A program made the position numbers and the translations under genes. From Alphaproteobacteria bacterium (GTDB lineage Bacteria > Pseudomonadota > Alphaproteobacteria > Micropepsales > Micropepsaceae): a DNA stretch of 40,184 bases. The stretch lies in the NCBI GenBank assembly GCA_027456965.1, contig DAIDUA010000053.1:1-40184 (forward strand). Direction: 5' to 3'. Position 1 is the first letter of the stretch, and every line of letters starts with the position of its first letter. The notes below the pieces were generated by a model that saw nothing but the letters and a program-made list of their open reading frames with translations, ran no database searches and was not told the DNA's origin. Positions 3,252-23,798 of this stretch are shown here, piece after piece.

Positions 3252-4367
3252 TCACGTCGTCATCCTGACCAGCATCAGACTGAATCCGGCGATGAAAAGA
3301 AAGGCGGCCAGTCCAAGAATGAGTGGTCGCAGGCCCTTCGCGCGCAGCTTGCGGATGTCGGTTTCCAGGCCCATGGCGGCCAGCGCCACCGAAAGCAGAA
3401 AGGTCGTTGCCGCGACGATCCCGGCCTTGATGTCGGTGGGGATGGCGACCACGCTATTGATGCCGACCAAGGCGATGAAGCCAAGCACAAACCATGGCAT
3501 CGGGACGGGCCTCGCCTGGTGGCGGTGCCCGCTTTTGTGCGGGTGGCTGCGGCTCATCAGGCCGAGCGAAATCACCACCGGCGCCAGCATCATCACGCGG
3601 GACAACTTGGCGATCGTGGCGAAATCGCCGGCCTGTTTGCCGTCCTGGTAGGCGGCCGCCACCACCTGGGCGATCTCATGGATCGATGACCCTGCCCACA
3701 GCCCATAGGCGTGTGGCGGCAGATGCAGCCCCCCCTCCACGAGGGGGTAGCAAAACATGGCGACGGAGCCGAACACCGTCACGCACGCGACCGCATAGGC
3801 AACGTCCTCGTCCGGGGCGTCCGTCACGGTGTTGGTCGCGATGACGGCCGATGCTCCGCAGATCGACGTGCCTGCGGCAATCAGTTCCGCAAGCTTGCGA
3901 TCTACGCCGAGCATGCCGCCAAGCCATTTGGTGAAAGCGATGGTGCTGACGAGCGTGATCAGGATCACGGCGATCCCAGTTGCTCCGACCTGAGCCACCT
4001 GTTCGGCCGTCAGTTGCAGCCCAAGAAGGATGATGGCGAGCCGCAGAATCTTGCGCAGCGAGAAGGTGACGCCGGGTCTCGCCCGTGCGGGTGTGCCCAC
4101 GAGGTTGTGGAAGGCGATGCCGATGAGGATGGCGAGGATCATGGGGCTGAGGAGCGAGACGCCAGGTATCTCGCGCAGTGCGAATGATGCGCCGGCGATC
4201 GCCGATGTCAGGAGCACGCCCGGCACAACAGCGCCCCACGGCGCTTTGCGATCAGCCTGCGGCCGATGCAGAGAACGCGCCCCCGCGGAAGGCACATGGG
4301 GTTCGGTTTCAGGTATGATCGTGCTCACGGCTTGCTCCAAGGTTTCGGGCGAGCCGAACCTTCGCAT
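3252..4367 (-). CDS. YeiH/UPF0324-family putative membrane exporter
   Basis: Multi-TM protein with [35 protein letters not shown] and [19 protein letters not shown], characteristic of the YeiH family. Confidence 0.85.
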
Positions 4368-18831: not shown

Positions 18832-20085
18832 ATGACTTCCGAAATCGCGGTGATGAACCAACGCGCGGTCGCGCTCGCGGCGGATTCCGCGGTGACCCTG
18901 ATCGACGGTGGTACCGTGGTCGTGCGGAACGACCAGCGCAAGCTCTACAATCTGGTAGAAGGGGCACCCATTGGCGTGATGTTCGTCGGCGTTGCCGACA
19001 TGATGGGGCACCCCTGGGAACATCTGATCGAGTATTTCCAAAAGAAGGCGAAGCAGGAGCCGCTGCAGCATGTCCGCGACTACGCAGTGAAGTTCGCCGG
19101 CATGCTCGACAATCTCGAGGAGTTCTTCCCGCGCGAACGTCAGAAGGACGATTACAAGCGGCTGCTGGCCTCGGTATACCGTTACGTCTTCCATCTTGCG
19201 CAGTACTTGCGAGAAAGCGGCGGCAATGAACGCGCCCAAGTGTCCGACACCGCAATCCTCGAAGAGGCCATCGAGCACGTCTGGAAGACATATCAGTTCC
19301 GCGAGGACGGAAACGTGCGGCGGGATCTCGGCTGTTTCCCGCAAGGCTTCGGCGCGACCGTGGCGCGCAATTACGCTGATGTCATCGGCGAATTGATCGC
19401 TTACGGCTTCTCGCCGTTCAACCTCGACAAAACGGCATTGCAGCAGCTGCGCGACATTGCCGTTTTCTGTGTGATCAAAGACTTGTTTCTGGAAGACGTA
19501 ACCGGGCTCGTATTCGCGGGCTTCGGCTCGGATGAGCGTTATCCGGTGGTCGTTACCTATTTCCTGTCCGCCATCGTGGGCGGTATCGTAAAACGTGCCG
19601 AGGCCAGTGTAGATGCCATCGACAACGCGGTGCGTTCGAAGATACGCGTCTTCGCCGACAGCGAGGTAACCAACGCGTTCATCCGCGGCATCGACTCCAA
19701 CCTGGAACGGCGGTTCTACGGGACGATGCAGATGATGATGTATGGTCTTGTCGACCACGTCATCGGCAGCTTTACGGGAGTCGACGCGGCAAAGCGCGAA
19801 AGCATCCGTGGGCAATTTCGCGACCAGGTCCTGCCGCAGTACTTCAATACCTTTCACAACATGATCGGGGATTACCAGCAGCAGACCTACATCAATCCTG
19901 TCTTGCGCGTGCTTGAAATCGCCGCCCGGTCGGAGCTGGCCGAAACGGCCCGTGAACTTGTCGCCCTCAATGTTTTCAAAAAGCGTATAATGGCGCAGCG
20001 ACAGACTGTCGGCGGTGCCATCGACGTTGCGGTCATCAGTCGCGAAGCCGGGTTTCAGTGGTGGACCAAACAGGTTGGAGGCTGA
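18832..20085 (+). CDS. Proteasome/HslV-like Ntn-hydrolase superfamily protein, uncharacterised
   Basis: N-terminus M-TSEIAVMNQRAVALAADSAVTL...RKLYNL...IGVMFVGVADMMG aligns by eye with HslV ([24 protein letters not shown]...KKVRRLYN...IAGFAGGTAD). Later GLVFAGFGSDERYPVVVTYF. Confidence 0.75.
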   Translation: MTSEIAVMNQRAVALAADSAVTLIDGGTVVVRNDQRKLYNLVEGAPIGVMFVGVADMMGHPWEHLIEYFQKKAKQEPLQHVRDYAVKFAGMLDNLEEFFPRERQKDDYKRLLASVYRYVFHLAQYLRESGGNERAQVSDTAILEEAIEHVWKTYQFREDGNVRRDLGCFPQGFGATVARNYADVIGELIAYGFSPFNLDKTALQQLRDIAVFCVIKDLFLEDVTGLVFAGFGSDERYPVVVTYFLSAIVGGIVKRAEASVDAIDNAVRSKIRVFADSEVTNAFIRGIDSNLERRFYGTMQMMMYGLVDHVIGSFTGVDAAKRESIRGQFRDQVLPQYFNTFHNMIGDYQQQTYINPVLRVLEIAARSELAETARELVALNVFKKRIMAQRQTVGGAIDVAVISREAGFQWWTKQVGG

Positions 20086-20086
20086 C

Positions 20087-20482
20087 ATGGCTGAAAGGCA
20101 CAAATCGAGTGAAGGGCCGCTGGCGGAAGGCGCAGAGCGGTTGGACCGCTTGGCGCGCATCGTCAAGGACAGCCAGCTTTCCCGTACCAAGACCGGCGCC
20201 AAGGCACCGACGACCGAGGCGTTTGTGCTCAGTCCGGAAGAGGCCTGGGCCAAGAAATACACGACCCAGTGTATCGGCCCCGTTTGTTTTGGCCCGCTGA
20301 CCGAGCCGCCGCCGTTCGCCAACTTCGCGGCGCCGCCGCTTGGACCGGTCAAAAGCCACGGTTTCACGGCCTCCCGGCCTGCCGAAGGGACGCCTTCGGC
20401 ACGTTCCGCCCCGATCGGCCTTGCCCTAGGAAAGCCCGCCCGTAAGCGTTCCTGGCTCGGCAGGCTGGTCAAGGGACGATAA
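20087..20482 (+). CDS. Hypothetical protein, probably co-transcribed with the Ntn-hydrolase
   Basis: ATG 2 nt after the preceding stop; 131 aa (MAERHKSSEGPLAEGAERLDRL...CIGPVCFGPLTEPPPF...KRSWLGRLVKGR). No recognised family. Confidence 0.65.
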   Translation: MAERHKSSEGPLAEGAERLDRLARIVKDSQLSRTKTGAKAPTTEAFVLSPEEAWAKKYTTQCIGPVCFGPLTEPPPFANFAAPPLGPVKSHGFTASRPAEGTPSARSAPIGLALGKPARKRSWLGRLVKGR

Positions 20483-21149: not shown

Positions 21150-23798
21150 GTGTTTAAACCATTCCGTCGCTGGTTTCGTTCGTACGGCGGGACGCTGCGC
21201 ATCGCCGTCGCGCTGCTTCTCGTGGTCGGCGCAAGCGCTCTGTTCTGGGCCAGCCGCGACTACACGGTTGTCGCGCCCGACTGGGACGGGCTCGTGCGCG
21301 GGGTCACCTACAATCCCAGCCATTGCTTCACTTTTGCCGAGTCCAAGCATGTCTCGCCGGAGCGGATCAATGCGGACATGGCGCAATTGTCGCGGATCAC
21401 CGGGCACATCCGCACCTATACGGTCTCTGACGGCCTCGACAAAGTACCTGAGATCGCGCGCCGCTACGGGCTGACCGTTTCGCTCGGCATCTGGATCGGA
21501 CCAGACCTGGTGAAGAATGAGCGCGAGATCAACAAAGCGCTCAAGGTCGTGCTGGCCAATCGCCGTGTCATTGATCGCGTCATCGTCGGCAACGAATCCA
21601 TCATGCGCGGCGACGTAACCGCCAATCAGTTGAATACTTACATTAAACGCGTGCGCGACGCGTTGCCGGCGCGCATCAAGGTCACCACGGCCGAGACTTG
21701 GTCGACTTGGCTGTTGCATCCGGAGATCGGAAAATATGTCGACGTCGTGTTCGTGCACCTGCTGCCTTATTGGGAAGGCACAGACGTGCGGCACGCACTC
21801 GCCTTTCTGCAGCGCGCCTACGACAATGTGCAGGCGGAATTTCCAAACAAGCCTATCGTTATCGGCGAGGCGGGTTGGCCGTCGGAAGGTCGCACTAAAG
21901 GAGCGGCTGAAGCCTCGCTCGCCAATGAGGCCTATTTTATCCGTAATTTCGTGCAGCTGGCGCTGAACAAGGGCTACGACTATTACCTCATCGAAGCCTA
22001 CGATCAGCCATGGAAGGCGGGCAGCGAGGGGACAGTCGGTGCTTACTGGGGGCTGTTCGACGCCAGCGGCAATCCCAAATTCCCGTTCACGGGCCTGCTG
22101 CGCTCTTTCCCGGAATGGCGCAGCTATACGCTGCTCGCGGCCATTTTCACGCTGCTGCTTGGTTTGCTGATCCTGGGGCGGATGCCGCGCGTTCGTCAGA
22201 CGGGCTACATCGTGATGGGCGGACTGGTCGCGCTTGTCACCACCGGCCTGCTTCTGGTGATTGACGCGACGACGCTCGACTACATCGACCCTGCCGACAT
22301 TGCGATGATTTTGGCTATGTCGCCGTTGGTATTCCTGGCCTCGGCCGTGATTTTAACCGAAGGCGTCGAGTTGGCTTCCAGTCTATGGCGCGTGGAGCGG
22401 CGTGCCGTACGCGCGGCGATTCCAGAAGCCAGTCCGCGCGTCTCGGTGCATGTGCCGTGCTACAACGAACCCCCCATAATGGTGATCGACACGCTCGATG
22501 CGTTGGCGCGGCTCGATTACGACAATTTCGAAGTTATCGTCCTCGATAACAACACGCCGGATCCGGAAACTTGGCGTCCGGTGGAAGCCCATTGCGCGAC
22601 GCTCGGGCCGCGCTTCCGCTTCTACCATTATGACAAAGTGCAGGGCTTCAAGGCCGGTGCGTTGAACAAGGCGCTGCAGTTGACTTGGCACGACGTGAAA
22701 TACATCGCGGTCATCGACAGCGACTATCGCGTGGAGACCAACTGGCTGCGTTTGACCTTACCGCTGTTCGCAGCGCCCGATATCGCTCTGGTGCAGGGCC
22801 CGCAGGATTACAGCGACGCCGAAACAAGCGTCTTCAAGGCGATGGCATACGAAGAATACCGCGGCTTCTTCCAGATCGGTATGGTGGAGCGCAACGAGCA
22901 CAACGCCATCATCCAGCACGGCACCATGACGATCGTGCGGAAGGATGCGCTGGAGGAGGTTGGCGGCTGGAGTACCTGGTGCATCACAGAAGATACGGAA
23001 CTCGGCCTTAAGCTTTTCGAGGCCGGCTATGGCGCCGCCTACATTCCGCTGAGCATGGGCCAGGGGCTGATCCCCGACACGCTGAAAGCCTTCCAGAGCC
23101 AGCGCTATCGCTGGGTCTACGGCGCCATGCAAATCCTGAAGCGTCATGCAGGCGCCATTTTTCTCGGCCGTGCGCGACTATCATGGGCCCAGCGCTATCA
23201 GTTCCTGAGCGGTTGGCTGCCGTGGATATCCGACGGGCTAGGGATGGTTGTTACCCTGATGGCGCTGGTGTGGACGCTCATGATGTGGGCCGCGCCGCGT
23301 TACGTCTATGTGCCGATGCCCGCCTTGTCGGCAGCGGCTCTGGCTCTGTTCCTTGCCAAGACTCTGAAAACCCTGCTGCTCTATCCGCAGAAGGTGCGGT
23401 CCGGTGTCAAGGGGGCGGTGATGGCGTCGGTCGCCGGCCTGTCGCTGACGCATACAGTAGGTAAAGCCGTGTGGGCCGGTCTGTTCACGAGCGGTAAACC
23501 GTTCCTCCGCACGCCGAAATGCGCCGACCAGGCGCTGCTAAGTCAGGCGCTGCGCGGCGTATGGCAGGAGTCGACGTTGTTCGTTCTGTGCATTCTCGCG
23601 ATCATGTCCGTCCTCGCCACGGGCCGGCTCGACGACCCAGCTGCCTTGCTCTGGATCGTGATGTTGGGTGTGCAGTGCCTGCCTTATGCGGCCACCATCG
23701 TGACCGCAGTGATCAGCGCGCGCTCCAATGCCAGGGATCGTCACGCGCCGACTCTGCCTGCTGCGACGACCCCCACGACATTGCCGAAGGCGGCGTAG
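21150..23798 (+). CDS. Membrane glucan synthase/transglycosylase: GH17-like domain fused to GT2 (NdvB-like)
   Basis: GTG start. N-terminal GH17 motifs VGNESIMRGD and VIGEAGWPSEG; TM segments; GT2 domain with VIDSDYR, EDTELGLKL and QSQRYRW. Confidence 0.82.
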   Translation: MFKPFRRWFRSYGGTLRIAVALLLVVGASALFWASRDYTVVAPDWDGLVRGVTYNPSHCFTFAESKHVSPERINADMAQLSRITGHIRTYTVSDGLDKVPEIARRYGLTVSLGIWIGPDLVKNEREINKALKVVLANRRVIDRVIVGNESIMRGDVTANQLNTYIKRVRDALPARIKVTTAETWSTWLLHPEIGKYVDVVFVHLLPYWEGTDVRHALAFLQRAYDNVQAEFPNKPIVIGEAGWPSEGRTKGAAEASLANEAYFIRNFVQLALNKGYDYYLIEAYDQPWKAGSEGTVGAYWGLFDASGNPKFPFTGLLRSFPEWRSYTLLAAIFTLLLGLLILGRMPRVRQTGYIVMGGLVALVTTGLLLVIDATTLDYIDPADIAMILAMSPLVFLASAVILTEGVELASSLWRVERRAVRAAIPEASPRVSVHVPCYNEPPIMVIDTLDALARLDYDNFEVIVLDNNTPDPETWRPVEAHCATLGPRFRFYHYDKVQGFKAGALNKALQLTWHDVKYIAVIDSDYRVETNWLRLTLPLFAAPDIALVQGPQDYSDAETSVFKAMAYEEYRGFFQIGMVERNEHNAIIQHGTMTIVRKDALEEVGGWSTWCITEDTELGLKLFEAGYGAAYIPLSMGQGLIPDTLKAFQSQRYRWVYGAMQILKRHAGAIFLGRARLSWAQRYQFLSGWLPWISDGLGMVVTLMALVWTLMMWAAPRYVYVPMPALSAAALALFLAKTLKTLLLYPQKVRSGVKGAVMASVAGLSLTHTVGKAVWAGLFTSGKPFLRTPKCADQALLSQALRGVWQESTLFVLCILAIMSVLATGRLDDPAALLWIVMLGVQCLPYAATIVTAVISARSNARDRHAPTLPAATTPTTLPKAA

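Follow-up and report, generated by a model that had tools for sequence, protein, structure and literature searches.

The window, a stretch of 40,184 nucleotides of alphaproteobacterial DNA, encodes a proteasome homologue of 417 amino acids followed at once by a small companion gene, and the two very probably make up a two-gene module of a live threonine hydrolase, its catalysis being predicted. We propose, with a probability of about 0.45, that this N-terminal-threonine hydrolase would act without an unfoldase of its own, on or together with its companion, in an accessory and probably phage-exclusion role. What is new here is the pairing with the companion gene and the distribution over accessory sites. 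The features discussed below are the following, in positions of the window.

18832..20085, plus strand: proteasome homologue, PMI-4-like, 417 aa, with a predicted N-terminal Thr nucleophile (open reading frame, invariant residues, profile, model)
18835..18837, plus strand: codon of Thr2, the predicted catalytic nucleophile, equivalent to proteasome Thr1 (invariant in 80/80 relatives; aligned with Thr1 of Thermoplasma 20S beta and of HslV)
19105..19494, plus strand: insertion 1, residues ~92-221, all-helical, after H1/H2 (AlphaFold2 secondary structure)
19696..19917, plus strand: insertion 2, residues ~289-362, long helices between core H3 and H4 (AlphaFold2 secondary structure)
20077..20081, plus strand: ribosome-binding site GGAGG of the companion, within the last hydrolase codons (sequence; repeated in orthologues)
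20083..20085, plus strand: stop codon of the hydrolase gene (sequence)
20087..20482, plus strand: companion gene, 131 aa, predicted mostly disordered, with an N-terminal helix and a basic C-terminal tail, KPxRKRSWLGRL (selection, alignment, AlphaFold2)

The hydrolase frame (18832-20085, plus strand), found by ORF calling on the window, opens with ATG, and its start is essentially fixed, since the open frame spans just 420 aa. Comparison with orthologues of 89-90% identity gave a dN/dS of ~0.04, which indicates a coding sequence under strong purifying selection. The gene is confirmed as real, and the motifs quoted from it by an earlier note, made from the sequence of the window, are present and conserved beyond chance. 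Searches against Pfam matched no family, and NCBIfam returned a weak match to HslV (E 0.064, residues 2-77). The window neighbours of the hydrolase are LysE, Usg-like, amidohydrolase, FKBP and glycosyltransferase genes; neither HslU nor any other AAA+ gene is among them, as the earlier note had said.

The residues corresponding to Thr1, Asp17 and Lys33 of the proteasome (T2, D18 and K37) were invariant in each of three sequence sets, of 24, 47 and 80 members, the last being dereplicated and reaching down to ~20% identity. Their conservation had been named beforehand, together with the fold, as a point on which a proteasome assignment would stand or fall. AADSA occurred in one of the two seed patterns used for the viral scan, and D18 was therefore partly pre-selected there; T2 and K37 are free of this bias. 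The profile built from 47 family sequences found the Thermoplasma 20S beta subunit as its best match among PDB sequences (E 0.0094), placing T2 on Thr1, K37 on the lysine of KKLF and, at the C-terminal end, VGG-IDVAVIS of the hydrolase on SGGMIDVAVIT of 20S beta. A single phage member matched Pfam Proteasome over residues 2-42 with an E of 0.0063, below the cut-off. HMM-HMM comparison with HslV was run on the core and on the N-terminus with shuffled controls; the N-terminal profile scored 24.9, against 11.7 +/- 2.3 (maximum 16.8) for 60 column-shuffled HslV profiles. The full-length HMM-HMM alignment with HslV goes wrong past residue 75 owing to the insertions.

The AlphaFold2 model of the hydrolase (pLDDT 89.4, pTM 0.85) placed 20S beta chains first in a Foldseek search of the PDB (E 7e-5, probability 1.00, TM by target 0.52), the large rmsd of this match being due to an alignment broken by the insertions. 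Against viral models, a phage protein labelled 'proteasome beta type-2' ranked first. The proteasome-like Ntn fold proposed by the earlier note is thus borne out by model and search, 20S beta being the closest structure. Invariant residues, profiles and the predicted model together mark the gene as encoding a proteasome-family (Ntn) protein with the presumptive catalytic triad intact. Threonine at position 2 makes a standard methionine-aminopeptidase substrate, and removal of the methionine would expose Thr1, a prediction of the earlier note with which the alignment of Thr2 to Thr1 of both 20S beta and HslV agrees. What speaks against our proposal within the active site is the variability of residue 53, the equivalent of the oxyanion-hole Gly47: glycine in 56 of the 80 relatives, asparagine in 20 and other residues in 4. 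Asparagine may be tolerated at this position, because the oxyanion hole uses a backbone NH.

In the model, the core comprises residues ~1-91, 222-288 and 363-412, with helices H1/H2 present (62-72 and 81-91) and a short S3/S4 turn. The earlier note had described one large helical insertion followed by a second core segment. The large insertion is there in the model, with a second one further on; the segment 'GLVFAGFGSDERYPVVVTYF', downstream of the first, maps to two beta strands of the core (224-230 and 239-249), as had been supposed. Insertion lengths are stable across the family, at 111-146 aa in 79 of 80 relatives (38 aa in L025) for the first and 47-79 aa in all 80 for the second. The exception (L025, 880-1719, minus strand) is a short relative of 280 aa from which most of insertion 1 is gone, with T2, D18, K37 and the C-terminal motif kept and an overlapping 61-aa ORF downstream of the hydrolase. 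A further short, insertion-poor relative lies at G404:C16:728077-728868; the short relatives measure 280-290 aa.

A survey of the proteasome superfamily in 2021 added 22 proteasome-like clusters (Fuchs, Alva & Lupas 2021, PMC8665760), so that the earlier note's list of bacterial relatives was out of date, although its view that the protein is unlike HslV, 20S, Anbu and BPH holds. Among the PMI clusters of that survey, both insertions are found in PMI-3 and PMI-4, and phages are listed solely for PMI-4 (PMC8665760), which together make PMI-4 the fitting cluster. The window protein shares with it the active-site residues, insertions after H1/H2 and between H3/H4, and a range over Proteobacteria, Firmicutes, Bacteroidetes and phages; the match is by description, not by alignment to the reference HDY66466.1. 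An unknown class of proteasome relative is ruled out by this fit, PMI-4 being uncharacterised but known. The survey gives no informative genomic context for its clusters (PMC8665760), whereas the family of the window has a companion gene and an accessory-site placement. Among phages the family corresponds to PHROG 5990 (full-length match, E 2.3e-67), to which PHROGs assigns no function.

The resemblance to HslV (ClpQ) lies in the N-terminal T...D...K pattern, whereas the window protein lacks HslU, has 417 rather than ~175 aa and carries two insertions. Its identity with HslV is ruled out, as it has neither the HslU partner nor the compact ~175-aa subunit; the genome holds a separate canonical HslV. 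The 20S beta subunit is the best PDB match in both profile and fold, and both ends of the core align with it, yet the window protein has two large insertions, no propeptide and no adjoining alpha subunit. Connectase, too, has a proteasome fold, lacks an unfoldase and targets specific peptides. It has no H1/H2 and a two-helix S3/S4 insertion, whereas the window protein shows the reverse in the AlphaFold2 model (H1/H2 present, S3/S4 turn short), which rules out connectase identity.

The earlier note overlooked the companion gene, which starts just past the hydrolase stop codon, and its description of the enzyme as autonomous fails in the genomic sense: a near-obligate small partner gene is present. 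The companion ATG stands at 20087 in the same direction, at a spacing from the stop codon given as 2 bases, and orthologues repeat the arrangement of hydrolase stop, GGAGG and companion ATG. A third-position excess and a dN/dS of 0.12-0.17 against L002 and L003 indicate a coding sequence under purifying selection. Alignment within the window's group revealed a conserved tail (KPxRRRSWLGRLF) along with SPEExW and IGP motifs, and the AlphaFold2 model (pLDDT 57.8) predicted mostly disorder with an N-terminal helix. The full hydrolase occurs in 28 of 69 genomes of the window's genus. A strong companion match adjoins it in 26 of these 28 carriers; in the remaining two an ORF of comparable size lies downstream. 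No strong companion match was present in any of the 41 non-carriers.

We searched viral relatives for an ORF of 25-75 aa, with a Shine-Dalgarno (SD) sequence required, from -40 to +60 bases of the hydrolase end. Such an ORF followed the hydrolase in 39 of 46 non-redundant cases, compared to 12 of 144 controls (Fisher p 9e-23); the controls were other long ORFs of the same contigs and are crude, being ORF-based with annotated genes unused, and the difference is large. Hydrolase and companion thus form a two-gene module in which the companion is near-obligate. The companions fall into unlike sequence groups (REWQKxFNP, KDFF...NFFTKL, LQQxVxNAYKALAAARF and others) and evolve faster than the enzyme while keeping the third-position excess. 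Judged by their sequences, these groups appear too dissimilar to establish common descent for all. Chromosomal relatives including L014-L018, L149, L151 and L152 lacked a small ORF with an SD sequence within the range searched; looser rules yielded a candidate small ORF for several of them. In one viral relative (L046, after 7338), the only one of its kind, the downstream ORF is long (~350 aa), with a possible membrane segment near its start as judged by eye, and may be a variant partner.

The pair behaves as an accessory module, carried by temperate phages, phage satellites, plasmids and some chromosomes. We found relatives on nine alphaproteobacterial MAG contigs, in 16 of the 385 class genomes and 10 of the 398 phylum genomes, on 10 plasmids (one from Enterococcus), in 13 phage or satellite-phage records (Streptococcus, Stenotrophomonas, Providencia, Porphyromonas) and on 171 IMG/VR contigs; among 5426 complete E. 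coli genomes, 22 had a detectable copy. In satellite phages the pair and the integrase occupy opposite ends, and in Streptococcus phage Javan85 the hydrolase lies at the end of the genome, beyond the lysis genes. Ten upstream neighbours were tested: four were CI-type repressors (L157, L062, L074, L091) and two an endolysin or peptidase (L044, L100). The hydrolase of E. coli prophage L157 lies close behind the repressor and in the same direction (annotated start at +43 bases, homology start at ~+140), a place taken in lambda by rexAB. In E. coli L158 and L159 it has antisense orientation and is flanked by Q and the lysis genes. Across all viral contigs the contexts were mixed, and the module had no fixed orientation with respect to the phage genes. 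Such sites hold lysogen-expressed accessory genes, commonly including exclusion systems.

An anti-phage or exclusion role, to which their position points, has in our estimate slightly less than even odds. A more specific form we advance tentatively: a new type of prokaryotic immune or superinfection-exclusion module, carried by phages, satellites and plasmids in several phyla, whose proteasome-type threonine hydrolase would be under the control of, or act by way of, a dedicated disordered peptide encoded by the adjoining gene. The enzyme would be a small or ring-less assembly, since its insertions occupy sites expected to hinder the double ring of 20S and HslV (PMC8665760), and would need no AAA+ unfoldase of its own, attacking an exposed stretch of peptide directly. 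Its dedicated peptide partner would be the disordered companion, either a substrate that is cut or a ligand that fills and gates the active site; we give substrate and regulator about equal odds. A lysogen would keep the pair expressed and silent until an incoming phage upsets it and sets off a cleavage that stops the infection, a form of superinfection exclusion or of abortive infection. Within the window's genus, the pair may have settled at a fixed chromosomal site, with loss still possible. Membership in a catalogued defence system is ruled out: PADLOC has no model that matches the hydrolase, and the companion gave a partial, weak match to PD-T4-6 (E 5.6e-4) that is probably compositional. 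Nor was a general link to known defence genes seen, which counts against the proposal. The literature on the function of the family or on proteasome-like phage defence yielded only the 2021 survey.

The situation in the window's genus bears on the strongest alternative, a house-keeping or stress peptidase that would clear unfolded or damaged proteins with no unfoldase to help it, a role proposed for BPH and free 20S, with the companion regulating assembly or activity and phages carrying the pair as a host fitness gene. There the pair resides in a conserved, metabolic neighbourhood, a fixed chromosomal locus with vertical inheritance, which fits such a role equally well; unfoldase-free, degradation-type roles were suggested for the new homologues by Fuchs et al. 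(PMC8665760). Yet only 28 of the 69 genus genomes have it, and in L201-L203 LysE adjoins FKBP with nothing between. At the same locus of L200 (G409:C46, ~3385-3486, minus strand) the hydrolase is deleted and a 3' remnant of the companion, 34 codons, persists between LysE and FKBP. The pair is therefore dispensable and was lost at least once at this locus. Rarity in the class (16/385) and carriage on mobile elements, among them satellites of 10 kb that have hardly any space to spare for house-keeping genes, also argue against this role, which we regard as rather unlikely.

The disorder of the companion, and its conserved C-terminal tail in the window's group, would also suit a ligase or processing enzyme specific for the companion, which it would cut or join to another protein or a membrane target, the basic tail being the released peptide. 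Connectase, the characterised monomeric proteasome homologue, is indeed a ligase (PMC8665760). The model of the window protein, with H1/H2 and without the S3/S4 insertion, is the opposite of connectase, and a cut-site motif shared across companion groups was sought by eye and none was seen; we judge such an enzyme unlikely. An addiction pair of the toxin-antitoxin kind, with a harmful hydrolase and an inhibitory companion maintaining the element, matches the adjoining or overlapping genes, the variable small partner and the presence on plasmids and phages, but is improbable given that the large gene precedes the small one, an order less common in such pairs (the G409 companion remnant is neutral here).

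The 2021 clusters had no functional clue, and a partner gene and accessory sites make function testable. PMI-4 is one of the largest clusters (~500 sequences), and its substrate or regulator would be encoded next door. Should the phage-exclusion proposal be true, it would add proteasome-type proteolysis to the known defences of prophages and inform ideas on the role of the earliest, ring-less relatives of the proteasome.

Some further observations concern individual loci. On Rhizobium plasmids (L162, L163, L166) and a Mesorhizobium plasmid (L160) the hydrolase lies within 1-3 kb of a ubiquitin-like conjugation locus, consisting of a Multi_ubiq-E2_E fusion and ThiF with or without JAB, to which Rhizobium adds DUF6527 and a ClpP-like protease. 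A general partnership with bacterial ubiquitin-like conjugation is ruled out, as 16 of 385 class genomes have the hydrolase and 11 of 385 Multi_ubiq, and both occur only in G004, on separate contigs; the neighbourhood is a local lead only. On a Hyphomicrobiales UR115 plasmid (L022/L164) the hydrolase gene appears to be split into two ORFs and is probably a pseudogene. In the window itself, positions 21150-23798 encode a protein of 882 aa that has a glycosyltransferase family 2 domain and, at its N-terminus, a weak GH17-like match, a useful marker of the locus since it is conserved in 82 of 96 family genomes.
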